From the NCBI GenBank assembly GCA_017469935.1, contig JAFUFL010000006.1, positions 1 to 40,512 of the forward strand: a stretch of 40,512 nucleotides of DNA. The letters run 5' to 3'. A program made the translations under genes and the position numbers. Origin of the DNA: Lachnospiraceae bacterium (lineage in GTDB: Bacteria > Bacillota > Clostridia > Lachnospirales > Lachnospiraceae). Under the pieces are notes generated by a model. The model was not told the origin of the DNA, searched no databases, and worked only from the letters and a program-made list of their open reading frames with translations. Positions 134-28,859 of this stretch are shown here, piece by piece (the stretch's first letter is position 1; each line of letters opens with the position of its first letter).

Positions 134-1765
134 CTAAAGATAATCTCCTATCTCACTTAATCCATTCTTGAGTATTATATTTTTAAGATTTTCACATTGT
201 CCAAATGTGCTATGATAACTATTCCATTCAGAAGGTATTTTTCCACCTGATAATACCTGTAATCCGCTACCCACTGTTATGGTTTCTAAACCGCTGCATT
301 TTTCAAATACACGCTTGCCTAAGCTCGTCACGCTGTCTGGGATTGTTACATTTGTTAAGTTACTGCAGCCGTAAAATGCATAATCTTCAATGTTCGTCAC
401 ACTGTCTGGTATTGTTATATTTGTTAGATTGCTACAGTTGTAAAATGCATGATTTCCAATGTTAGTCACGCTGTCTGGAATAGTTATATTGGTTAGATTA
501 CTGCAGCCACCAAATAAGGCGTTATTAATGCTCATCACGCTGTCTGGAATAGTTATATCTGTTAGATTCCTGCAGTCGGCAAATACACTATGACCAATGC
601 TCGTCACGCTGTTCGGTATTGTTATATTTGTTAGATTGCTGCATTGAGAAAATGCCCTGTCACCAATGCTCGTCACGCTGTCAGGAATAGTTATATCTTT
701 TAAGTTACTGCAATATAAAAATGCATCTTCTCCAATACTCGTCACGCTATCCGGGATTATTATATTTGTTAGATTGCTACAATCAGAAAAAGCACTGTTG
801 CAAATACTCGTCACGTTGTCAGGTATAATTACACTTATATTATTACTACTCCCTACCAGTAGTTGGTGGCAACCAAATTCAAGTATAGCGTTAGGAATCG
901 TTATACTTTCCAGACCGCTGCAGCCGAAAAAGACGTCAAGCCCTATTCTAGTAACACTGTCTGGGATTATAATACTTTTCAAATAAATGCATTGTGAAAA
1001 AGCATAACTTCCTATATCAGTAACTGTATTAGGCAATGAAACACTCGTCATTTTATTCAGTGAATAAAATGCGTAATCTCCTACGCTGGTAATCCCCTCC
1101 TCGACAATGAGCGTTTTTATCTTAGCTCTCTTTGGTGCCCATGGAATACTAGACTCAAAGAAATCATCCATTCCCCCGCTTCCACTAATCGTAAGCGTAA
1201 GATTATCATCCGTCCCTGTCAGCGTCCAAGTCACATTATCTCCGCAAGTTCCAGTGTCAACAACATCCGATGTCTCACCCTCCTTTAGAAGAGTCGAAGC
1301 TTCCTTTACCTCAGCATCTTTTACTCCGATATCTTCAAGTTTCAGTTCGACAGTTTCACTCTCCTGATCCTCGACGACGGTATCTGTTTCTTCTTCACTT
1401 ACGTTTTCTTCCTCAGCAACTACTCCCTCAGTTGTGGATCCTTCTTCCACAGCTTCAGGCACTTCTGTATTGTCCGTATTTTCGCCAGTTTCTTCCTTCG
1501 CCGGAACTTCTTCTGCAACGTCTGCAGACTCTTCCTCTGGAACTTCTTCTACAACCTCTGCCGGTTCCTCCTCTGAAGCTTCCTCCACAGTGGCAGACTC
1601 AGTTGTTTCTTCAGAATCTCTTTCCTCCCCAACAACTGTATCAGCTTCTTCCTGTACCTGCCCGTTCTCTTGTTCCATCGTCTCTGCCGCCATAACCGGA
1701 ACACTACCAGCACTTCCCGATGCCAACACTAACGCCAATAGAAAAGCAATTACCTTTTTCTTCAT
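134..1765 (-). CDS. BspA-like leucine-rich repeat surface protein, apparently C-terminally truncated
   Basis: The 543-residue protein has a clear signal peptide (MKKK followed by a hydrophobic stretch, cleavage near VMAAE). A roughly 120-residue Glu/Thr/Val-rich acidic spacer follows, then about twelve 23-residue BspA/LRR_5 repeats of the type ITIPDSVTSIGDxAFxxCSNL. Such proteins are exported and often bind host or matrix ligands. The start is an ATG behind GGAGGAGCCGAGGGAG. The protein stops inside a repeat (SEIGDYL then stop, where SEIGDYAF is expected) and lacks any anchor or C-terminal domain. The gene may therefore be broken, or may sit at an assembly or recombination point. The DNA repeats are near-identical, which favours slippage. 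The family call is firm; the truncation is inferred. Confidence 0.85.
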   Translation of the reverse strand: MKKKVIAFLLALVLASGSAGSVPVMAAETMEQENGQVQEEADTVVGEERDSEETTESATVEEASEEEPAEVVEEVPEEESADVAEEVPAKEETGENTDNTEVPEAVEEGSTTEGVVAEEENVSEEETDTVVEDQESETVELKLEDIGVKDAEVKEASTLLKEGETSDVVDTGTCGDNVTWTLTGTDDNLTLTISGSGGMDDFFESSIPWAPKRAKIKTLIVEEGITSVGDYAFYSLNKMTSVSLPNTVTDIGSYAFSQCIYLKSIIIPDSVTRIGLDVFFGCSGLESITIPNAILEFGCHQLLVGSSNNISVIIPDNVTSICNSAFSDCSNLTNIIIPDSVTSIGEDAFLYCSNLKDITIPDSVTSIGDRAFSQCSNLTNITIPNSVTSIGHSVFADCRNLTDITIPDSVMSINNALFGGCSNLTNITIPDSVTNIGNHAFYNCSNLTNITIPDSVTNIEDYAFYGCSNLTNVTIPDSVTSLGKRVFEKCSGLETITVGSGLQVLSGGKIPSEWNSYHSTFGQCENLKNIILKNGLSEIGDYL

Positions 1766-1861: not shown

Positions 1862-2797
1862 TCAATCACGATGAAAGATCTTAACTTCCGTAAAGACTTT
1901 CTTGTAATACTCCACATAATCTGTCGGCTTACTGCACGTCCGCACATTAACTCCGCATACTTCCGCCAGCATCCGCTGTGCATCTGGCATGTCGGGTTTA
2001 TAAAGGAATACTTCTCCCTTCCCATTACGCTTTTTACAATCCATCAACCACCACAAATCAAGTTCTGATTGATCCATTCCCTGTCCGACAATGAATATAT
2101 CACCGAAGAGGAGATAATCGACCCAGCTTCTGGGATAAAACTGCCCACCATATCGCTCCGCTATTCTGAATCTCTTTATAGCCTCTGCACTGTAGGACTG
2201 CATTTTACTGAGCAGTTTTCCATAATAGTAGTGCCCGATGATCATGGTATCCGGAAGCGCCGCTTCGCCGTGGATATGCCAGATTGGGACTTCTTCCGCG
2301 CCGCCAGGCAGGAAGATATATTGATATAAGGCGCTGGTCTCCCCTCTCGGTTTATCTTGGCAGGTCTTTCGCCGATATTTTGACGGACGGCGCACTGCAA
2401 CCTGAAAATCCGGACTCAATGCCTTTTCGATCTCATAGCTGTAATTTGTGGTCAGAATTGCATCGAATCCGCATTGAACCGCATTCCTGATCAGCTCCTG
2501 TTCTCCCGGAAGCGGAGATAAATCGATATACTTCTCAGATACTTTTTCCATGCCCTGTGCCACATGGTTTCCCGTAGCGACAATCGCTATCTGCGGGTAG
2601 GGAAGTTCTTTTATCTTTTCCCATTCATCTTCCGAGAAATCACCAAGTGCAATCTCTTTCAGGAGCTTATCCCAGTTATCATTTTCAAAGGCACGATGAA
2701 GACCATTGCCTGTTAACAAAACTTTCGGGACATACTCCGTTTCAAACGGCTGCATATACTGCAGCATTCCCTTGTGTTTATCTTTGCGCAAACTCAT
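1862..2797 (-). CDS. SIR2-like domain protein (possible NAD-consuming defence protein)
   Basis: The 311-residue soluble protein carries landmarks of the SIR2-like fold. There is a glycine nucleotide loop LLTGNGLHRAF near residues 27-37, TTNYSYEIE near 115-123, WHIHGEA near 173-179, and GQGMDQSELDLWWLM near 237-251. SIR2-like domains of this kind occur in anti-phage NAD-depletion systems, but many members have no known role, and no partner ATPase or SLOG protein lies next to it. The assigned ATG is only 2 nt from its AGAGG motif. An in-frame TTG two codons later has better spacing, so the exact start is uncertain. It is divergent from a small ribbon-helix-helix gene, which may regulate it. The domain call is moderately sure; a defence role is inference. 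Confidence 0.65.
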   Translation of the reverse strand: MSLRKDKHKGMLQYMQPFETEYVPKVLLTGNGLHRAFENDNWDKLLKEIALGDFSEDEWEKIKELPYPQIAIVATGNHVAQGMEKVSEKYIDLSPLPGEQELIRNAVQCGFDAILTTNYSYEIEKALSPDFQVAVRRPSKYRRKTCQDKPRGETSALYQYIFLPGGAEEVPIWHIHGEAALPDTMIIGHYYYGKLLSKMQSYSAEAIKRFRIAERYGGQFYPRSWVDYLLFGDIFIVGQGMDQSELDLWWLMDCKKRNGKGEVFLYKPDMPDAQRMLAEVCGVNVRTCSKPTDYVEYYKKVFTEVKIFHRD

Positions 2798-2848
2798 CTC
2801 CTCTCGTCATTTGTTCTGTACTGAATGCCTGCAAGTTATAATCTTACG

Positions 2849-2880
2849 TAATACTACTTTAGCTTATTTAATACTACTTT
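2849..2880. promoter_or_regulatory. Two 12-bp direct repeats between the SIR2-like and RHH genes
   Basis: TAATACTACTTT occurs at 2849-2860 and again at 2869-2880, exactly 20 bp apart (about two helical turns). The site is in the divergent intergenic region 37 bp before the ribbon-helix-helix start. Such spacing suits paired dimers of an RHH repressor, so an autoregulatory operator is plausible. This is inference from spacing alone. Confidence 0.4.
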
Positions 2881-2916
2881 TTCAACTTCGAATAGGGATT
2901 ATTTATAATAAGAAGC

Positions 2917-3090
2917 ATGAATACTCAAAAGCCTTTAAAAAGTAAAGTAAGCATCACACTCGACGAAGAAGTGATCAGGAGAATCAGGGAACTGGCCGAG
3001 GCGGACGACCGCAACTTCAGTCAGTATATTAATCTTGTGCTGAAAAAGCATATTGAGAGCAAGAGCAACTCCGAACGACAGCCGAAATAA
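2917..3090 (+). CDS. Small ribbon-helix-helix (CopG/Arc-type) DNA-binding protein
   Basis: This 57-residue protein begins MNTQKPLKSKVSITLDEEVI, and RRIRELAEADDRNFSQYINLVL follows. A short basic beta strand (KVSITLD), two helices and the turn residues DDRNFSQYI are the ribbon-helix-helix pattern of CopG/Arc regulators and of many antitoxins. The start is ATG at 2917 with only a weak upstream AAGAAG. No toxin-like ORF follows; the next feature is a hairpin. Likely targets are the direct repeats upstream and the divergent SIR2-like gene. Codon use is ordinary and the frame closes cleanly with TAA at 3088-3090. Confidence 0.7.
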   Translation: MNTQKPLKSKVSITLDEEVIRRIRELAEADDRNFSQYINLVLKKHIESKSNSERQPK

Positions 3091-3130
3091 TCCTCGACAT
3101 TCTCCTTCAACAAAATACTCAGAACAGATC

Positions 3131-3158
3131 GGATGGGCAGGCAAGGTGCTGCCCATCC
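3131..3158 (+). terminator. Intrinsic terminator-like hairpin after the RHH gene
   Basis: GGATGGGCAG (3131-3140) and CTGCCCATCC (3149-3158) form a perfect 10-bp stem with an 8-nt loop. GTATGCTTTTCTTT follows on the plus strand, a reasonable though interrupted U-tract. It lies 40 bp after the stop of the ribbon-helix-helix gene. Confidence 0.6.
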
Positions 3159-3172
3159 GTATGCTTTTCTTT

Positions 3173-3304
3173 GAGCCATGCCGACAGTTACGCGTCCATG
3201 GGACGCTCACTGTCGCGGCATTCGCCGTATGTGTCCAGTCCTGCTCCCAGCCGATTATGAGCAAGCTCCCATCGTCTGGGAGCAGGACTGGACACGCATG
3301 GCTC
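3173..3304. repeat. Nested, multibranched palindromic element
   Basis: An outer stem GAGCCATG (3173-3180) / CATGGCTC (3297-3304) encloses two further palindromes. One is CGACAGT/ACTGTCG (3182-3188 / 3209-3215) with an inner GCGTCC/GGACGC stem. The other is a perfect 20-bp arm pair at 3231-3250 / 3276-3295 (starts GTGTCCAGTCC, 25-nt loop). Together they would fold as a three-way junction about 130 nt long. No coding function is visible. It may be a small palindromic mobile repeat or a structured RNA. Confidence 0.55.
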
Positions 3305-3316
3305 ATTGCTACGCAC

Positions 3317-3354
3317 AAAAAATACTCACAGAAGCAAGCCTCTGTGAGTATTTT
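3317..3354 (-). terminator. Terminator of the AAA/nuclease gene
   Basis: Arms at 3319-3335 and 3338-3354 (AAAATACTCACAG... / ...CTGTGAGTATTTT) form a long stem. In minus-strand RNA the single imperfection is a G-U wobble; in plus-strand RNA it is an A-C clash. The minus strand continues into TTTTTTG. Both facts point to termination of the minus-strand gene that ends at 3416. Confidence 0.7.
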
Positions 3355-3415
3355 ATTCTTATGCCTTTCTTTAATGGTGGGCTCTGAGCCCACAAATCGA
3401 ACTTTTAGTAACTGT

Positions 3416-5119
3416 TCAGCCGCCCTTCCTGATCAGGCACTCCTTGCCCCGAAATGCCAATCCGTATCGGAGGATATTCTCTGCCGGTATTCCCCTGGCC
3501 AGAAGAGCTGCGTCATAGTGTCTCTCTTCAATCTGCGCAAGCGCGCTGCGCGCCGTATCCTCCAGCGTCTTTTCCCCGTCTTCCTCATCCAGGACCTTGA
3601 ATTCCATGATGACAGCCTTGCCTCGTGTGTCTTTTGGCTCCATCACCACATCATAACGCCCGTACCCGCTCTCCCGGTTAGATGTCAGGATATAATTACC
3701 CGACTGGCTCACCAAAAGCCCCAGAACAAACCCATGATAGAATCTCTCCGGTTCCGTAATGCCGGGCTTTTTCCCTGTGTCAAAATAACTGAATGTGTTG
3801 AGCGCAACACGATTCATATAGCGATTCATTCCCCGCTCATCTCCGCGAAACATGGCATTCACAAATTCACCAAAAGAATCATCCTCATCGAACCAGTCCA
3901 GGATCAGATTTCTGAACATCAATCTGGTCTCCAGATTTGTGATGGTGAGCGTGTAGAGCGGAGCGCTGTCGATGGATACATCTGCGTAAGACTGATGACG
4001 AACAACTTTTAAATACCCGGATGCGAGCAGAAGGCTCCATACTGCGTCTTTCTTCTTTTCCAGCTGATCAAATATGATCTGTTCATCGATTTGGACAGTC
4101 AGCTCTCCTCCCTTCATAAGGATCTCAAACTGTTCCTTTATGTCACTTCGGCCGCTTCTGATCAGCATCCCGATCAGGCTGTTGCTGCTGGTGTTGGCCC
4201 AGTAAATGCCGAGTGTCCTTTTGTCCAGATAGGACGTGACCGACCATGGATTATAGATATCCGTACTGCTTCCGAAAGTAAACCCGTCGTACCAGCTTTT
4301 AACCTCCTGCTTCTGTGCTTTAGTTGCACCGATTTTATCCAGTGCCCCAAATACTTCTTCTTCCGAAAAGCCGAAGGCGATCTCATATTTGCCGGTAGTT
4401 GACGTGACGACCTCCATATTGTTGAGATCGGAGAAGATTGATTCTTTGCTGACTCTGGTGATTCCTGTGAGCAGCGCTCTCTCCATGGAAGGGTTTGTCT
4501 TAAATGTATTATTGAACATGGAGCGAATGAAAGCTGTGAGCTCATCCCAGTAGCCGCTGATATACGCCTCCTGGAGCGGTGTGTCGTATTCGTCCAACAG
4601 GATCAGCACCTTTTTGCCAAAATACTTCTCCAGAAGCATCGAGAGGAGATTTAAGGAGAATTCCGTATCCACCCGGCTCATCTCCTCGCTGATTCTCCCA
4701 AGAGCCTTTTTTTCATTTTCGTCGAAAATATTGCTCTCATAAAGGAAAGAATTCTCGGAATATACCCGGACGATCTGTTTTTTGATCTGTGCCAGCGCGT
4801 CCGGAAAGGTTGTCCCTTTCACGCCGGCAAATGTCACAAAGATTACGGGATAGGTGCCCTGCAGCTCCCGCATTTTCTCATTCTTCCAAATCTTCTTGCT
4901 CTCGAACAGATCGCTGCGCCCCGCATAGCGGTTCGAGAAAAAGCATTTGAGCATTGACATATTGAGTGTCTTTCCAAAACGTCTGGGCCGCGTGATCAGT
5001 GTCACTGCGTCCTGCTCTTCCCACCACTCGCGGATGAAGTCTGTCTTATCAATATAGAAACTGTCATTTTTGATCAGTGTTTCATAATCCTGAACACCGA
5101 TCGCAACTGTCTTCGCCAT
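3416..5119 (-). CDS. AAA-ATPase-like protein with C-terminal PD-(D/E)xK nuclease-fold domain
   Basis: This 567-residue protein has an N-terminal AAA-ATPase-like region with the P-loop RPRRFGKT (residues 44-51) and the FYIDKTDFI motif before it. A Walker-B-like [12 protein letters not shown] follows, and the C-terminal PD-(D/E)xK domain shows [10 protein letters not shown]...AVIMEFKV. The combination is the AAA-ATPase_like/PDDEXK_9 family, present in many copies in gut anaerobes. Its role is not established; a link to mobile elements or defence is often suspected. I place the start at the ATG giving MAKTVAIG because GGGAG lies 6 nt upstream; the longer frame start lacks a site. It follows the kinase gene by 65 bp on the same strand and ends in a strong terminator. 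Confidence 0.85.
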
Positions 5120-5184
5120 AACTATCTCCCGCTGTTCCCCAAAAGAATGCTTTTGATATTGATTATGTCTATCATAACACAAAG

Positions 5185-7380
5185 TTAAAATTCCGTACTC
5201 ATCATCCCTTCCCAGTAGCCGATCTGTTCTCCGCCATCCGCGTAAATCCAGATCTTATAGGACCGGTCGAACAGATTATAGGTGCTGTCCTCTTCGGAAT
5301 AGTTCGCTTCTGCCGTCTCCCCGCTCTTGTATTCCTTTCCGTCGCTCCAGGTATCAGAATCATTTCCGGTGGGATCGTCAATCCGGAAGGTAATTGTTGT
5401 CGAACCGTCGGGCGGACCGCCGCTCAGCTTTGCCCTTATAAAAGCGGACTGCATAGAACCGAAGGAGTACGCCATGCCTGTGCTGACGGAGACGTGCCAC
5501 TTGTAGATCTCCTCTCGCAAGTCCTCCGCTCCTTCGTAGCCCTGATCCACGAGTTCCGCAATATACTCGTACGTTGTATCGGTCGGCTCCTCCTGTGTAT
5601 TCTCGCAATACTCGTACTGCGTCTCCCGCGCGCGCTCATCCGAGTCTTTATACCCAGGAATGCTCTTATAAGAACTGACTGCAGCCGAATAACTTCCGTT
5701 CTCCGCTTCCCTCGCCGCCTTGCGGTAGATGCTCTCCGAGGCCTTTTCTGCGGCATCCTTATAATCTCCGAGCGCGCTGTATTTTGACGCGGCCTCGTTG
5801 TAATCCTCCTTGGCAAATGCCGCTTCCGCCTCTTCATAATCGGTTTCTTTGATCAGCTCCGAGAGCTCGTCGCTGTTCCAGGCGCCGGCCTCCTGCATCT
5901 GCTCGTAGATCAATCTGGCGTTGCTCCACTGCTGCGCCTTTTTCTCGGCTTCCGCAGCCGCCAGGAACTGTTCATGCGCGGCGTCGAACTCTTCTTTCTG
6001 GCCGGCGCCGCATTTCTCCAAGGCCATATAGGCGTTCGCAATCAGCTTGATTTTCCTGTAGGCTTTGCTCTCCTTGAAGTCCGCCGTATACTCCCGCGCC
6101 TTCTCCAGAGTGAGCGCAGTTCCGGCTTCCCAGTGCTGCTGCGCGTCCACCGCGCCGGCTTCCTTCTGCTCGTAAAGCGCTCCCAGTCCGTCTTCAAACC
6201 TGTCATTCTCGAAATCCCAGCCGGCCATCGCGTAGCTGTGAACCGCCTTCCAGGTCGCCTCCTCCCCATAATGATTTGTCAAAATATCCCTGATCTGATT
6301 GGCATTCTCCGACTTTCCGGCTTTGAAGCACCGCTTCATTACGGCTTCCATCTCGTCACGTACCGCCTGTTTCTGGCCGGCGTTCATTCTTTGATAGGGA
6401 TGCTCCCCGGCAAATTCTTCGACGGCAGTAAGGATCTGCACGTCTTTCACCTCATACTGCTGCATGGTGGACAGCTCCGCGCGGATGGCTTCCTCCTGCC
6501 TTGCCGGGTAGACGAAAAGCCCCCAGACGACTCCTGCAAGGATCAGCACTGCCGCCACGACAGCGCCTGCCAGCGCGATCCTGGCCCGCACTCTGTGGCT
6601 CTTGTTCATCGGGTCAAAGCCCGGGATCTTCTCTAATCTCTGATCAAGCGCTGACGTGTGCTCTCTGATCCTCTGGATCTGCCCCTTCATCTGCGCGGCC
6701 GACGTATAGCGCTTCCTGGGGTCCATCTCCGTCGCTTTCTCGGCGATCCGCTTTGCGTCCACATTGCCGGGCAGCATGCGCTCAATGAGCTTTCCCAGCG
6801 CATAGAGGTCTGTCCTGACATTGGACTGCGCAAAGCCGTACTGCTCCGGAGCTGCAAGCCCCTGCGTGCCGATCATCATGGTGTCCTTATCCTGTCCGGC
6901 GATGTATATTTTGGCGGCGTCGTAGTCGATGATCTTGACGATACGATCGTCGGTCACCATGATATTCGAAGCCTTGATATCCCGGTGGATGATCGGCGGA
7001 TCGGCGGAGTGCAGGAAGGAAAGACCGTCGCAGATCTGCGTCAGGCAATCGATGCGGTCGGCGAAGGCGAGCCCGTTGGTTTCTGATGCGTTTTGGTCAT
7101 TTCCTTCCGATTCACGCAGAATCTCATCCAGCGTCCGGCCCTGGATCAGCTCCTCGATGACAACCAGTTTGTCTCCGTCTTTCCAATAAGCCTGAATGCC
7201 GGCTACGTTTCGGTTCTTGTGCTCTCGCAGATAAGCGTAGACATGTTCATTGTAGACATCCAGCGTCTTTTTAAAATATAATTTCCCTGTGGGGACATCC
7301 CTGACGAAGGATTTTCCGTCTTCCAGGACGCGGATTTCATCGTAGAGTGCGTTTTCGCACAGCTTTTCGAGTTCTGTCAT
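5185..7380 (-). CDS. Transmembrane Ser/Thr protein kinase with extracytoplasmic repeat region
   Basis: The 731-residue protein has a Hanks-type kinase domain at about 10-245. Landmarks are HRDIKASNI (132-140), DYD in place of DFG (152-154), and the APEQYG loop (177-182). The glycine-rich loop is degenerate; the candidate ATP lysine is in KLYFKK. A single membrane span lies at about 268-291. The outer part is helical and TPR-like, with repeated Glu/Ala/Lys motifs such as [29 protein letters not shown], and ends in a beta-rich domain from about residue 635. This is the layout of a sensory kinase watching the cell surface. The start is the ATG behind GGGGGAAA; a TTG four codons upstream overlaps that site. 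Divergent from a helix-turn-helix gene; the AAA/nuclease gene follows on the same strand. Substrates are unknown. Confidence 0.85.
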
Positions 7381-7508
7381 GTTTTCCCCCAATCGACAAG
7401 GATTGTCTCACTTTATCGTATACTATGATTATAGCACGAGTCAGCTTTTCGGATATGCATTGCAGGAAATCTGTGCTGCCGGTAAGCCACTTTAGAGAGG
7501 AAACACAT

Positions 7509-20558: not shown

Positions 20559-21965
20559 TCATTCATACTTTACATCTGTATTGGTATCTCTGAATACCCT
20601 CTCTCCCTGCCGGCAGCCCTTGGGCAATACGATCTCATCCAGACTTGTGCAGCCGCGGAAGGCATAGCGGTCCAGATATTTCATTGTCGACGGAATACCC
20701 ACATGGCTGAGCTTGGTACAGTCGCGAAATGCGTTTTCCCCGATCTCTGTATATCCTTCCGGCAGAATAATCTCCTCAAGGAGAGCGCAGCCGCGGAAGG
20801 CCGTTCTTCCGACCGTCCGATTGCCTTTAGACGAATTCTCCCCGCCGACAGAAGCCGGATCGACAAAAGTCACCTTTTCCAGAGCATGGCAGTCGCGGAA
20901 GGCACCGGATCCGATGGTCAGGACCGTGCCCGATATTGTAACACTTTTCAGTCTGAGGCAGTATCGGAACGCATTATCTCCGATTTTATCGGGTCCCTCC
21001 GGCAAAGTTACCTCAAACAAAGGACAGCATCGAAATGCGCTGTCGCCGATATACTGTACGGTGCTCGGGATCGTCACGCCGGTCAGACAGCATCTGTGAA
21101 AGGCATAGTCTCCTATTTTAGTAAGTCCTTCCGGCAGATTGATCTCCCGCAGCTTCACACACTCGCGAAAAGCAGATCCGTTTATTGTCTGTATTGTCGA
21201 CGGAAGCGTCACACTCTTAAGACTCAAACAGTCGCTGAATGCGCGTCCTCCGATGCGGATCACACCTTCCGGAATGACAACTCTTTCGAGGTTTTCACAT
21301 TTTTCAAACGTGCTGCCCCTTATTTCTTTGAGTCCTTTCGGAAGTTCTATTTCGCGCATGGATTTTGTGCCGAAAAAGACAGTTCCTCTGATCTCTGTGA
21401 CCGGCTCTCCTTTATAGGTATCCGGTATCACGACTTTTGATTCTTCATTAATCGCCCTTGTGTAATAGCGAAGGCTGTAACCTGCATTGTTTTTTTCAAA
21501 GATCATATGCGGTTTAAAGTACAAAAGCAATGACAGGAGCAGCGTACCGCCTATAATAGCCGCTTCTATTCCGTACACTTTAAAGGCGTTCCAGCAGTTG
21601 TCGCTCTCGCTCGCCAGCACGCCGTCGATCTCTGCGTCAGGCATCTTCTTTATCTTGTGGAGCAGGGATTTCTCGTTCGTAAAAAAGAGCCAGCTCGTAA
21701 AGAACCAGATTATAGTGATACTTACCAGCAAGGAAGCGCCATAACTAAAGTCATAATTTCGATAAAACGCATAGATACTCAGGATCAAAAAACCGAGGAC
21801 CGCATAGAGAGCTGTCCCAACGATCTTCTTTACAGCGGCATTTTTGTGCATGACTCTCTTTCCGTCCGCCTGATCTTTCACATAAATCCGGATATATGCC
21901 TCCAGAGCCTCTTTCGGTTTATCATAGGTGAGCAGCTCCTCGGTGTAATTCTCCAAGCTAACCAT
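20559..21965 (-). CDS. Membrane-anchored BspA-like leucine-rich repeat protein
   Basis: The 468-residue protein has a cytoplasmic N-terminus of about 45 residues and three or four membrane spans: IVGTALYAVLGFLILSIYAFY, LLVSITIIWFFTSWLFF and AIIGGTLLLSLLLYF. From about residue 180 there are some eleven BspA/LRR_5 repeats such as LPEGLTKIGDYAFHRC and IPSTVQYIGDSAFRCC. The repeats resemble those of the secreted protein at 0.1-1.8 kb but are fused to a membrane anchor and have no signal peptide. It is the last gene of the radical SAM operon, 63 bp after the zinc-ribbon gene, and so may bind or display the modified product. That link is positional. Confidence 0.75.
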   Translation of the reverse strand: MVSLENYTEELLTYDKPKEALEAYIRIYVKDQADGKRVMHKNAAVKKIVGTALYAVLGFLILSIYAFYRNYDFSYGASLLVSITIIWFFTSWLFFTNEKSLLHKIKKMPDAEIDGVLASESDNCWNAFKVYGIEAAIIGGTLLLSLLLYFKPHMIFEKNNAGYSLRYYTRAINEESKVVIPDTYKGEPVTEIRGTVFFGTKSMREIELPKGLKEIRGSTFEKCENLERVVIPEGVIRIGGRAFSDCLSLKSVTLPSTIQTINGSAFRECVKLREINLPEGLTKIGDYAFHRCCLTGVTIPSTVQYIGDSAFRCCPLFEVTLPEGPDKIGDNAFRYCLRLKSVTISGTVLTIGSGAFRDCHALEKVTFVDPASVGGENSSKGNRTVGRTAFRGCALLEEIILPEGYTEIGENAFRDCTKLSHVGIPSTMKYLDRYAFRGCTSLDEIVLPKGCRQGERVFRDTNTDVKYE

Positions 21966-22028
21966 TTCCGTTCCTCTTTCTGTATCGTATTCGTTGTTCC
22001 TTTTCCGCTGCGCTTAAATAATACTGAG

Positions 22029-23123
22029 TCAGATATCCGCCGACATAATATACAGTCTCTGCCTGTAATTGATTCTCTGCCCGCAGTATTCACAGGACTT
22101 TTTCGTCACATCGACCGGCGCTCCGCAGCCGCGGCAGTGAATGATGTTCACGCCCGGATGAAGCTCGTCCGGTTTCACGGTGTTCTCCCGCATCCGGATC
22201 CTGAACTGATTCTCCCGCGCATGAATACGGTTCCCCGTCATCAGGATCCTGCGAAGTCTCACGGCCAGCAGGATGTCCGGCTTCCCGTCCTCTCCTTCAG
22301 TGATTTGGAAATCCGTATACTCCAGAATGTCCGCGTCGACCACATCGCCATCCTTTCCGCTTCCTTTCGGGTCTGTCCCTTCTCCGTCCTGTTCCCTGTT
22401 TTTGTCCGAACAGCTATAGAGCCGGTAATTCAGCTCACTGTGAAGATTATTGTAAAAGGTGCTCAGGGGGATCTCCAGTTCGAGGAGATCTTTTTCAAAG
22501 TTGCGGATCAGCTTCGTCTGCTTCTCGTACTTCTTCTGCGCGAGGCGGGAGATCACAAATGCATGCGTCACAAAGAAGAGATAGAAGATCAGAAGCGCCG
22601 GCGTCACGCCGAATACCACTGCCTTGAGCTTATCAAAAAACAGGAAAGTCCTTCCGGTCGTCCTGACAATGTAGAACGAAACCGGCAGGCAGACCGCCAG
22701 ACACAACAGGAGCACCACCGCGTAGAGCCCCGAATTTTTGGATTCCTTGTCGGCAAAATATTGTCCGCCTTCTTTTCGGTCCGCATATTCAATGTTGTAG
22801 CTTGCTCCGCAGTAAGGGCACCCGTCACTGAAAGCTTCTCCCTTTCCCTCATATCCGCAGTTGGGGCAGGTGCAAGGCTGCGAAGCGGCGCTTCCGCCCA
22901 GATATGTATATTTGATCAGCGGGCTGAAATCCTTCTCCTTATGGATGACCTCTCCGTTCCGGAAGTATTTCTTTTGAAGTATGATCCCGTCTCTCACATC
23001 GTCGTCATGAGAATGATCCGTAGAACGGATCCGGGTCCTGTGATTTTCCCAGAAATCCGTCTGCACACAAAGCCCGTATTTCTTAAGTACTTTAGACTGT
23101 TCTTTTTCTGAAACGAATATCAT
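22029..23123 (-). CDS. Zinc-ribbon membrane protein of unknown function
   Basis: The 364-residue protein carries a four-cysteine zinc ribbon (CPNCGYEGKGEAFSDGCPYCG, about 86-106). Two membrane spans follow, GLYAVVLLLCLAVCLPVSFYIV and VFGVTPALLIFYLFFVTHAFVI, then a helical region and a second ribbon (CRGCGAPVDVTKKSCEYCG, about 332-350). The first spans are flanked by charged segments, suggesting that both ribbons face the cytoplasm. I do not recognise the family beyond double zinc-ribbon membrane proteins. It lies 42 bp after the poly-asparagine gene and 63 bp before the LRR gene, all on one strand, so it is likely part of the radical SAM operon. Confidence 0.75.
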   Translation of the reverse strand: MIFVSEKEQSKVLKKYGLCVQTDFWENHRTRIRSTDHSHDDDVRDGIILQKKYFRNGEVIHKEKDFSPLIKYTYLGGSAASQPCTCPNCGYEGKGEAFSDGCPYCGASYNIEYADRKEGGQYFADKESKNSGLYAVVLLLCLAVCLPVSFYIVRTTGRTFLFFDKLKAVVFGVTPALLIFYLFFVTHAFVISRLAQKKYEKQTKLIRNFEKDLLELEIPLSTFYNNLHSELNYRLYSCSDKNREQDGEGTDPKGSGKDGDVVDADILEYTDFQITEGEDGKPDILLAVRLRRILMTGNRIHARENQFRIRMRENTVKPDELHPGVNIIHCRGCGAPVDVTKKSCEYCGQRINYRQRLYIMSADI

Positions 23124-23165
23124 GCCGCCGTAATCCCCGAGCCGGCTTCCATCGGCCGGCCGCGT

Positions 23166-23576
23166 TTAATTATTATTGTTATTATTGTTAGTATTGTTAT
23201 TATTGTTGTTATTATTGTTGTTGTTGGAACTCCCGCCGCTGTAACTGCTGCTGCTGTAACTGCTGCTGTAGCCGTCTCCGCTGCTGCTTCTGCTGACCTG
23301 TGCCGGCGCGGGCTGCACTTTTTTGACGACAAAGTTCGAATTGCTTGCGATAATATAGGCTATGTCTTCTACATCGCAGCCGATCTTATAGCGATATTTT
23401 CCAATTCCATTTCCGTCAACGATTTCGAAACCTGCTTCCGTTCCTCTTGCGGTGCTGCCGTTCTTTAATTCCTCTAAGATGACTTCCGCGTCTTTTTCTT
23501 CGATCTTATAGTACTGCATGAGTCTCTGTAAGTAAAACCAGGCCATAAATTCATTGTATGTCTTAGGCTTGACCAC
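23166..23576 (-). CDS. Small protein with Ser/Tyr-rich and poly-asparagine tail; candidate radical SAM substrate
   Basis: The 136-residue protein has a folded-looking N-terminal domain (about 1-88; helices YNEFMAWFYLQRLMQYYKIEEKDAEVILEELKNG, then beta-rich YRYKIGCDVEDIAYIIA). A low-complexity tail follows: SRSSSGDGYSSSYSSSSYSGG, then 11 Asn, one Thr and 7 Asn to the stop. The Asn run uses AAC and AAT in mixed order, not a pure triplet repeat, so the residues rather than the DNA seem to be conserved. Its ATG lies 14 bp inside the radical SAM gene, so the two are coupled. A leader-like domain with a repetitive tail beside a SPASM maturase fits a ribosomally made, post-translationally modified product. 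No known precursor family is recognised. Confidence 0.7.
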   Translation of the reverse strand: MVKPKTYNEFMAWFYLQRLMQYYKIEEKDAEVILEELKNGSTARGTEAGFEIVDGNGIGKYRYKIGCDVEDIAYIIASNSNFVVKKVQPAPAQVSRSSSGDGYSSSYSSSSYSGGSSNNNNNNNNNNNTNNNNNNN

Positions 23577-25329
23577 GAATTATCTCCTCCATCTCTTTAG
23601 TTGAAAAATAGTAGAATTCAATGTTTTGAAAGGGCAGGTCCATCGCCTGCATGTGGTAAAACGCGTTATTTTTCTGCTTATTGTAGTGTACGTTTCTAAG
23701 CGCCGTTGTTGTAAAGAATATATTGTTGGCCTCTGTTTTGGAAAGGTACTGCCCATACCGGCGCAAAAAAGGCATGAGGTCGTATTGATAGAAACCTTCT
23801 CTGTCCGACGGCATCTGCGCCAGCACGTCTTTGTAGACTGCCTCGTTGGCTATATGCCTCTGCTTGGTGCGGCCTTCGTCGCCGTAGACGATCATATCCC
23901 CGGAGAGGAGCTGAATGAAGAGCGAATTGTTGGCCGGGTAGTCACTCTGTGCCTCCAGCACTTCCCTGCGGATATAGAGGCTTACATCGCTCTCCTGTGT
24001 GATGCACAGGATCATCCTCTCTCCGCGCAGGATCTGCGACTGCAATCGGTACTCTGTGCCGTCAAGCATCAGCGTGAACGCCTCCGGGTCATAGATATAT
24101 TTGAGCGCGTTATCCGCCTTGATCAGGTCCTGCAGCGGGGGAACTCCCATCGGAATGCGGGGCGGCCGGTAGTCCTCGGCGGTCCGGGGATGCATGAGGC
24201 TCAGGTACTCGTAAACGGTGTACCTGTTTCCCGGATCGGGGCCGTACCGCATCTGTTTATAGAGCTCCTTCTGCAGAAGGCATGTGTAACTTTTCGGAGA
24301 ATGGTACACGTTCTTGACGAAGGGACATCCCGTCTTGCACAGGTATAAATATCCGCAGTCCGCACATTCCGGATCAAAGCCGACCGCGCCGTGCGCTGCC
24401 CTGATCTTGTCCCGGGCCGCCGCCAAAATATCGTCGACCTCATCTTTATAGATATTCCCGTAATAGAACTCCTCGTGCTTTTGTCCACGCACGCAGGAGT
24501 ATATGTCCCCGTTCCTCTCCAGAAGGAAAAATTTGGAACCGCAGTTGTCGCAGTTGGTGCAGTATTCGGGCCCGAATTCCGCAAACCAGGCCGTGTCCAG
24601 GCCTTTCTGCAGCTCCGTTCCTTCAAAGGCCTCCCTGATCTTGCGGTAGAAGTCCACCTGCTCTTCCTGGGACAGCGCCGTGAGAAGGCCTCCGCAGTTG
24701 TAGTCAAACCCGATCATAAAATTGAAATCATTCATATCCAGGCAGGTCTCCCGGTCAAGGAAGCGGATATCCTCGATCATTTCCTCTGTTCTGAGGTAAT
24801 GTTCCCTGAAGATGGTGGATGATACCTTCTTTTTGCCGGGAAGAGACTCCAGAAGCTCTATATTTTGAAGAATGCGCTTCAGCGTCGGCTCTCCGCCTTT
24901 GGTCAGCCTGAACGTGTCGTGGAGCGAGAACGGAAGGTCAAGGCTTCCGCTGACCGACACGCCGTAATCCCGGATCGTATCTATATGACGGCCAAGGTCA
25001 TACAGGTTTGTCTTGATGTGGGGACTCCCGATTCGGAAGCCCGCGCCGGCAATGATCGATTCATTCTCCTTGTAATAGTCGTGTATAAAGGCAATCAGAG
25101 CGCGAAAGTCCCCCGTCGACAGCGTCGTGACTTCTCCTCCGTGCAAAGAGATATTAAAAGGCATGACATCTGCGGCCCTGAACTTATTCACTGCGTACTG
25201 CAGTGTTTCCAAGGGGCCTTTGTCCGATCCGGAGTCCACGGTATTGTCTTCCAGATAGCAGTATCTGCACTGCATGTTGCAGGCCATGGTCGGCACGTAT
25301 AATAAATGGATGAATCTCATGCTATGCAA
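23563..25329 (-). CDS. Radical SAM/SPASM peptide maturase-like enzyme
   Basis: The 588-residue protein has the radical SAM cluster motif CNMQCRYC (Cys 17, 21, 24), the SAM-binding HGGE (63-66) and a SPASM/twitch region. In that region Cys occur at 257, 260, 263, 279, 322, 325, 331, 335 and 350 (CTNCDNC; CADCGYLYLCKTGC), enough for two auxiliary 4Fe-4S clusters. About 230 further residues of unknown fold follow. Such enzymes install crosslinks, thioethers or epimerised residues in peptides or activate sulfatases; no sulfatase is near. The start is probably TTG (25329), 4 nt from GGAG, though an in-frame ATG three codons later is possible. First gene of a four-gene operon. Confidence 0.85.
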   Translation of the reverse strand: MHSMRFIHLLYVPTMACNMQCRYCYLEDNTVDSGSDKGPLETLQYAVNKFRAADVMPFNISLHGGEVTTLSTGDFRALIAFIHDYYKENESIIAGAGFRIGSPHIKTNLYDLGRHIDTIRDYGVSVSGSLDLPFSLHDTFRLTKGGEPTLKRILQNIELLESLPGKKKVSSTIFREHYLRTEEMIEDIRFLDRETCLDMNDFNFMIGFDYNCGGLLTALSQEEQVDFYRKIREAFEGTELQKGLDTAWFAEFGPEYCTNCDNCGSKFFLLERNGDIYSCVRGQKHEEFYYGNIYKDEVDDILAAARDKIRAAHGAVGFDPECADCGYLYLCKTGCPFVKNVYHSPKSYTCLLQKELYKQMRYGPDPGNRYTVYEYLSLMHPRTAEDYRPPRIPMGVPPLQDLIKADNALKYIYDPEAFTLMLDGTEYRLQSQILRGERMILCITQESDVSLYIRREVLEAQSDYPANNSLFIQLLSGDMIVYGDEGRTKQRHIANEAVYKDVLAQMPSDREGFYQYDLMPFLRRYGQYLSKTEANNIFFTTTALRNVHYNKQKNNAFYHMQAMDLPFQNIEFYYFSTKEMEEIIRGQA

Positions 25330-28471: not shown

Positions 28472-28768
28472 TCAGCAGAACTCAACAAATCTTCTGTCTA
28501 CCCAGCCGGTCTTTCCGCCATAGGAAGCCCACACATAGTTGCCGCTCACTTTGTCAGCCTTGATGCTGAAAACGGTTCCTCTGGAGATGCGGGCGATCTC
28601 GTTCTCATACTTGTAGCTGGGGTGATTACGAAGTGCGAGATAGTTCTTCTTGACGATGCATCTCACGGATCTCCATGCGCTGCGGCTCTCGCCTGCTCCG
28701 CCGTCTACCGCATCAAGCTCTTCCTCTGTAAGGGGGGCGATTTCCAGTTCAAAATTCTTTTCTTCCAT
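28472..28768 (-). CDS. Double-glycine-leader peptide with SH3-like domain
   Basis: The 98-residue protein begins MEEKNFELEIAPLTEEELDAVDGG, then AGESRS. LTEEELDAVDGG is the classic double-glycine leader of peptides cut and exported by C39-peptidase ABC transporters, and is shared with Nif11-type precursors. The rest (about 30-98; YLALRNHPSYKYENEIARISRGTVFSIKADKVSGNYVWASYGGKTGWVDRRFVEFC) is a bacterial SH3-like domain, not a typical bacteriocin core. The start ATG follows AAAGGAG. No exporter or maturase is adjacent; the nearest maturase is 3.1 kb away and on another transcript. Secretion of a cell-wall-binding module by a bacteriocin-type exporter is the likeliest reading. Confidence 0.7.
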   Translation of the reverse strand: MEEKNFELEIAPLTEEELDAVDGGAGESRSAWRSVRCIVKKNYLALRNHPSYKYENEIARISRGTVFSIKADKVSGNYVWASYGGKTGWVDRRFVEFC

Positions 28769-28859
28769 GGCTGTTCTCCTTTGCAATTATAAGTGTAATG
28801 TTTATGCTGCAAACAACTGCTCTTAATTCAAGGCTCGCGGAGAGATCCGCTGCGCCGAA

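Follow-up and report, generated by a model that had tools for sequence, protein, structure and literature searches.

The locus considered here raises the question of what a radical SAM enzyme with a SPASM domain finds to modify in an adjoining small protein that ends in a run of asparagine (Asn). Both genes lie in a 40,512-nt stretch of DNA from a Lachnospiraceae bacterium (contig JAFUFL010000006.1), the whole of which is called the window below. Comparison of the window enzyme with its relatives in bacteria and phages indicated that enzyme and Asn tail are paired, that both are lost together among phage tail fibres, that the tract is under selection and that the enzyme keeps a distinct pattern of cluster ligands. 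The reading that we favour, and consider likely, is that runs of Asn at the C-terminus are oxidised by the enzyme and that a shared C-terminal domain defines one family in both settings.

Pairing of the enzyme with an Asn-tailed small gene

A scan of genome contigs with the window enzyme recovered 99 relatives, of which 80 were kept (L032-L111); the aligned relatives were 50-92% identical to the window enzyme. The small gene was complete in 64 of the 80 loci and its product ended in an Asn tract in all 64, with a longest run of 5-20 Asn and at most one residue after the tract. In the 62 loci using the standard code the small gene started between -68 and +37 bp from the end of the enzyme gene. 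At nine of the 80 loci the contig stopped at the Asn run or two codons past it (the latter in L066, with 8 Asn and then TF in the open frame), in L047 the frame was broken at the tract, and six loci (L035, L041, L046, L108, L109 and L111) were not judgeable. The first-pass annotation, made from the window alone, had asked whether a small gene with an Asn tail always adjoins the enzyme; it did so wherever this could be judged, and homologous enzymes regularly lacking the small gene were looked for and none such was found. The occurrence of the enzyme beside an Asn-tailed small gene is confirmed.

Contigs often ended within the (AAY)n tract itself (L033, L034, L044, L048, L049, L051, L055 and L089). 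Since metagenome contigs end inside the tract, many assemblies contain only a truncated target gene, which is easy to overlook.

Controls indicated that such tails are not a general property of these regions. An (AAY)5 run within an open reading frame (ORF) of at least 30 aa occurred in 0 of 25 loci around unrelated SPASM matches (about 1.5 kb on each side), and no other ORF with at least 40 codons before the tract ended in at least 5 Asn in the 1.13 Mb of the 80 loci. In the genus of the window the full-length enzyme was present in five of 62 genomes, its own included, and among 117 relatives only in these five; (AAY)9 was found in the same five genomes and in no other genome of the genus (Fisher p 1.7e-7, computed as 5/0/0/56, the correct last cell being 57). 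In the RF39-like order, to which the L053 genome belongs, 13 of 241 genomes carried the enzyme, one of them as a contig-edge fragment, and all 13 carried an Asn-tailed ORF; some of these loci overlap the set of 80. Elsewhere the enzyme was rare (2/295, 2/398, 2/149 and 1/247 genomes, the centre genome being counted each time). No intermediate full-length members of the family were detected at E 1e-20 in 398 genomes of the phylum, at 1e-15 in 247 genomes of the class of the Bacteroidales genome or at 1e-20 in 149 genomes of the class of the Slackia genome.

Among 27 whole genomes of relatives, 24 contained (AAY)8; of the other three, G759 has its contig cut in the tract and G763 and G771 have tails of 5 and 6 Asn. 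Extra Asn runs in G775 and G777 were considered as second targets and rejected, each lying inside an unrelated protein. The one in G775 (L186), which carries the system as well, is a 517-aa protein with 14 Asn in mid-sequence, unrelated to the small protein. In G783 Asn runs were present on both strands.

The codons of the tract were analysed in 65 tracts (62 loci, the window, L004 and L005). Asn was encoded by 864 of 870 tract codons (479 AAT and 385 AAC), which is far from the random composition that had been named beforehand as an outcome counting against a modified tail. Switches between AAT and AAC numbered 446 against 397 +/- 13 in shuffles, that is more alternation than expected, and the longest run of one codon was 3.08 against 4.07 +/- 0.15 in shuffles. 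In the 32 loci with less than 32% GC the AAC share was 0.36 in the tract versus 0.11 in the enzyme gene. Codon alternation and AAC excess are both what one would predict for a tract in which Asn is needed and slippage is prevented, and the codon evidence indicates that the Asn residues are under selection and that codon order resists slippage. The first-pass argument that mixed AAC and AAT codons point to selected residues was borne out by both the switch and the composition tests.

The small protein of the window had no match in NCBIfam or Pfam at E 0.01, and an NCBIfam scan of 69 small proteins gave two single weak matches judged to be chance. Its alignment showed a mean column identity of 26% over the whole length, the Asn columns being the best conserved. 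The tail had been described as an Asn/Ser/Tyr core; the Asn part of that description stands, while Ser and Tyr of the tail region vary and many linkers are devoid of Tyr. Ser, Thr or Gly lies directly before the Asn run in gut proteins and phage fibres. No transmembrane (TM)-like segments were found in 53 of 54 small proteins by the Kyte-Doolittle scale.

Phage relatives and tail-fibre tips

The phage protein family PHROG 1802 aligned over its full length to residues 12-576 of the window enzyme (E 5.6e-32), and matched the enzyme of a 97-kb phage contig (L190) at 1.5e-49 and that of Campylobacter phage CAM-P21 at 6.4e-142. The CAM-P21 protein is a full-length relative of the window enzyme (31.7%, E 7e-85), alignable through the C-terminal domain, and is 38% identical to the L190 enzyme. 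No close relative of the window enzyme was found in IMG/VR by a first scan. In CAM-P21 the enzyme gene lies in a Mu-like phage tail module, two genes after a tail fibre whose C-terminus is SGSTNNNNY. Campylobacter-type IMG/VR contigs with the enzyme numbered 11, and each encodes, two genes upstream of it, a protein with a C-terminal NN followed by Y, F or S (NNNNY in seven, GNNF in three and GNNS in one), while the fibre bodies differ. In L154 and L199 the phage enzyme gene is apparently frame-broken and the fibre still ends GNNS or GNNF. Radical SAM genes of group II/T4-like Campylobacter phages are interpreted as metabolic in two papers (PMC2853527, PMC12398825).

Sibling fibres were gathered by their common N-terminal domain from 28 IMG/VR loci and two named records, and two of these 30 loci, which end within the fibre, were set aside. 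All nine sibling fibres with the enzyme downstream ended NNNNY or GNNF, versus none of the 19 where the enzyme was not seen (Fisher p 1.4e-7 on contigs, which are not independent); the contig of L215 ends 569 bp after the fibre, leaving the absence of the enzyme unproven, that of L211 ends after 827 bp, leaving it weakly supported, and the L223 fibre is short (197 aa). Judged by eye, four tip types occurred with the enzyme versus at least five without it. Fibre tip and enzyme travel together, and we regard the phage fibres as the strongest, independent evidence for the pairing.

No common family was detected between the gut partners and the phage fibres, and the partner feature common to both was an end composed of Ser/Gly/Thr followed by C-terminal Asn. 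Because this end is what the partners have in common, recognition is more likely to occur at the C-terminus than through an N-terminal domain. The first-pass proposal that residues 1-88 of the small protein form a leader or recognition domain was therefore not supported: this domain is the variable part, and the fibres beside related phage enzymes lack it.

The enzyme, its proposed reaction and competing explanations

The window enzyme matched the radical SAM domain (PF04055, 39.3 bits against a Pfam cut-off of 29.5) and the SPASM domain of NCBIfam (TIGR04085, 44.8 bits against 27), and the Pfam SPASM domain (PF13186) scored 21.2 bits, slightly below its cut-off of 21.5. The best NCBIfam equivalog was TIGR03942, anaerobic sulfatase maturase (anSME), at 83.4 bits against a cut-off of 349.45, and no equivalog among the matches listed (25 of 49 families) reached its cut-off. 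Profile matches in the PDB covered the radical SAM/SPASM part only. Among the Pfam matches of the enzyme, its C-terminal part and the small proteins, there was at sequence level no recognition element of ribosomally synthesized and post-translationally modified peptides, PqqD-like or other, and no recurrent protease gene was among the neighbour clusters seen around the enzyme loci. TM-like segments were absent from 71 of 75 enzymes by the Kyte-Doolittle scale.

The CxxxCxxC motif (C17, C21 and C24) was invariant together with eight further Cys in alignments of 72 and 18 sequences, which gives exactly 11 invariant Cys across gut and phage enzymes. The SPASM-type spacing CX9-15GX4C - CX2CX5CX3C - C is present as the invariant residues C263-x10-G274-x4-C279, C322-x2-C325-x5-C331-x3-C335 and C350. 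On a ligand assignment that we presume to follow anaerobic sulfatase maturase, these 11 would suffice for one radical SAM cluster plus two auxiliary clusters that are fully ligated. The position of the anSME catalytic Asp, which we take to be Asp277, after the CX9-15GX4C motif, is V280 in the window enzyme and His in the phage enzyme according to the alignments. In epimerases of the YydG type a conserved non-cluster Cys acts as hydrogen donor (PMC5682303). All 11 invariant Cys are assignable to cluster ligands by spacing, and lineage-specific extra Cys may occur; since no invariant Cys is left for such a donor, plain epimerisation is less likely, and oxidation to dehydro-Asn or to a cross-link would fit better.

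From these comparisons we infer that the tail is modified, that the change falls on Asn and that it is oxidative in nature. The enzyme would bind the exposed C-terminal Asn run and the Ser, Gly or Thr just before it, form a 5'-deoxyadenosyl radical and take hydrogen from the C-beta or C-alpha of Asn. The leftover electron would pass through two auxiliary [4Fe-4S] clusters, and the net result would be an oxidation such as dehydro-Asn or a cross-link of neighbouring residues. The target would be the tail-fibre tip in Mu-like phages of Campylobacter and a dedicated small soluble protein in gut bacteria, which may be bound or displayed by the membrane proteins with leucine-rich repeats (LRR) and zinc ribbons that are often encoded nearby. 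The enzyme probably acts on the run by an as yet undescribed chemistry.

Several points weigh against this reading. Nearly all source sequences are metagenome bins, and the phage sample is small, with the four tip types on related contigs. Run lengths differ, gut proteins having 5-20 Asn and phage fibres 2-4 Asn followed by Y, F or S. A strong codon effect was confined to AT-rich genomes: above 40% GC there was no AAC excess (0.52 versus 0.52 and 0.58 versus 0.62, tract versus enzyme gene). The L190 phage contig has no fibre ending in Asn; a 34-aa ORF at 7274-7378, upstream of its full-length enzyme relative, ends CTNNSNH and is suggestive only as an Asn-ended partner, and no other members of this type of phage contig were found in IMG/VR. 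Finally, Ser, Thr or Gly precedes the run in gut and phage alike, which would also be expected if the Asn run were a docking signal and the enzyme modified nearby Ser, Thr or Gly, for example in the SGGSSS before the run. We regard docking as unlikely. The nearest characterised profile relative, anSME, is indeed an oxidiser of Ser or Cys, but runs of up to 20 Asn, almost unsubstituted, exceed the needs of a docking tag, and the catalytic Asp of anSME is replaced as described above.

It is less probable still that the enzyme acts on the LRR or the zinc-ribbon membrane protein, with the small Asn-tailed protein as an adaptor. An LRR gene does adjoin the enzyme in 73 of 79 evaluable loci; nevertheless at tblastn sensitivity it is missing in 6 of 79 and the zinc-ribbon gene in 23 of 64, while the Asn-tailed gene is present where it could be judged, and neither membrane protein is listed by the enzyme in the annotated phage regions examined. 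Hardly any weight is given to the view that the tract is a functionless trinucleotide microsatellite beside an unrelated maturase. Asn runs do arise by slippage, and in six of the 117 genomes of the order (AAY)9 fell in Asn-rich ORFs unrelated to the small gene; on the contrary, the tracts interleave AAT and AAC, are 99% Asn at the protein level, occur in every complete homologue across several phyla and are tied to the enzyme in phage fibres.

Oxidative modification of the Asn run by the enzyme is thus the reading retained. We judge evenly balanced a wider version of it, in which one family builds undescribed oxidised or cross-linked poly-Asn ends in two settings. In phages these ends would sit on the fibre tip; in unrelated bacteria of gut and rumen, among them a lineage with TGA read as Gly, they would sit on a dedicated cytosolic protein that is connected with an LRR protein of the membrane acting in sensing or display. 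Such a homopolymeric target would have no precedent, and neither would a receptor-binding tip finished by a radical SAM enzyme. If true, this would amount to a new modification of protein ends, governed by a recognition rule as simple as a run of Asn at the C-terminus. The orphan phage family PHROG 1802 would be explained, phages would be shown to use a radical enzyme for the chemical finishing of their fibre tips, and a function would be found for an operon conserved in gut and rumen genomes of Bacillota, Bacteroidota, Actinomycetota and the lineage with TGA as Gly.

Gene layout, distribution and relation to known systems

The ORF check of the window returned four genes on one strand with the same coordinates as first given, including the overlap between enzyme and small gene. 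The tail, first described as 18 Asn, does contain 18, with one Thr inside. The small gene and the zinc-ribbon gene are separated by 42 bp and the zinc-ribbon and LRR genes by 63 bp. For the enzyme the ATG is more likely the start than the TTG, because a 92% identical relative starts there.

Table 1. Features of the window operon
Feature	Position	Strand	Remarks
Radical SAM/SPASM enzyme	23563..25329	-	588 aa from TTG at 25329; 585 aa from ATG at 25320
Enzyme sub-parts			Residues 1-350, radical SAM and SPASM; residues ~360-588, domain with no Pfam match above cut-off
Asn-tailed partner protein	23166..23576	-	136 aa, GTG start; 14-bp overlap with enzyme gene
Partner variable N-terminal domain, residues 1-88	23313..23576	-	Alignment of small proteins
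Partner Ser/Gly/Tyr-rich linker, residues 89-117	23226..23312	-	Alignment and coordinates
Partner C-terminal Asn tract, N11-T-N7, proposed target	23169..23225	-	Tract kept in relatives
Double zinc-ribbon protein, two TM-like segments, frequent partner	22029..23123	-	Pfam, TM prediction
BspA-type (LRR_5) repeat protein, three TM-like segments, frequent partner	20559..21965	-	Pfam, TM prediction

The membrane partners were counted by tblastn with the window included, and ORFs lying under longer antisense ORFs (the zinc-ribbon gene of the window and the LRR gene of L032) were also counted. The LRR_5 protein, so often adjoining the enzyme, was met at 1 of 1076 control points on the same contigs; it was encoded upstream in 71 loci and downstream in the window and L032. 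A zinc-ribbon protein was encoded within 1.8 kb downstream of the enzyme in 41 of 64 evaluable loci, and 41 of 42 complete members had two TM-like segments (Kyte-Doolittle). Both had been listed as operon members, and they are frequent but not universal. The complete genome of Lachnospiraceae bacterium GAM79 (AP018536.1, locus L054) has all four genes, those for the enzyme, the small protein, the LRR protein and the zinc-ribbon protein. Several loci lack one or both, so that the core consists of the enzyme and the Asn-tailed protein; that the membrane proteins bind, sense or display the product is a guess.

Carriers of the family were found among gut and rumen bacteria (Bacillota, Bacteroidota, Actinomycetota and genomes that read TGA as Gly) and some phages. 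In a quick tree the seven Bacteroidota and two Actinomycetota sequences nested in a well supported Bacillota group; the taxon titles are those of metagenome bins, and the tree is therefore no proof of transfer. Reading of TGA as glycine is known in SR1/Gracilibacteria. In L095 and L104, 15 of 16 in-frame TGA codons of the two enzymes together aligned to Gly of the reference L074, and with TGA read as sense the coding coverage rose to 86% in L095, starting at 7%, and to 71% in L104, starting at 5%, while it hardly moved in four controls. A search for release factor 2 gave nothing above cut-off in these two genomes or in one of the four controls (G1420). An identity of 75-77% between the L095 and L104 enzymes and the enzyme of a Bacilli-like bin suggests transfer into a code 25 lineage.

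Apart from the operon, the window carries at 28472-28786 (minus strand) a 104-aa ORF with LTEEELDAVDGGAG, which resembles a double-glycine leader, followed by a stretch that looks SH3-like by eye, with no Pfam match. ORFs at 1862-7392 (minus strand) have SIR2_2, AAA-ATPase_like/PDDEXK_9 and protein kinase domains, and this region may be one of defence or toxin-antitoxin-like genes. Separate from the operon, another LRR_5 protein, whose N-terminus is signal-like, is encoded at 134-1765 (minus strand).

A SPASM enzyme with a repetitive target encoded next to it is a known kind of system; the proposed Asn target, the tail-fibre setting and the C-terminal domain set the present one apart. A literature search whose coverage mostly excluded subscription journals and preprints found no paper on the phage enzyme or on a radical SAM enzyme that targets an Asn run. 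The PHROG 1802 entry, a "radical SAM domain-containing protein", matches the window enzyme over its full length and assigns no function or target, the link to Asn-ended fibre tips being new as far as searched. Anaerobic sulfatase maturase oxidises Ser or Cys. Its profile and structures (TIGR03942, PDB 4k36-4k39) align with the radical SAM and SPASM core, residues 11-359, and the invariant Cys count of the window family would suit the same two auxiliary clusters; the window enzyme differs in reaching only 83 bits versus 349, in adding a C-terminal domain of about 230 residues, in lacking the catalytic Asp and in having an Asn-ended operon partner and no sulfatase. Cyclophane (triceptide) maturases such as YhhB and AmcB, and the darobactin and dynobactin maturases, gave weak radical SAM/SPASM matches far below the cut-offs. 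Some enzymes of these types use Asn as a cross-link partner; the group needs an aromatic residue near Asn, whereas the gut Asn tracts contain no aromatic residue. The His-Xaa-Ser, GrrM Gly-rich repeat and CXXX repeat systems likewise place a SPASM enzyme by a small gene with a repetitive C-terminus; unlike theirs, the proposed target in the window is an Asn homopolymer free of Cys and aromatic residues, and the family also occurs beside phage tail fibres.

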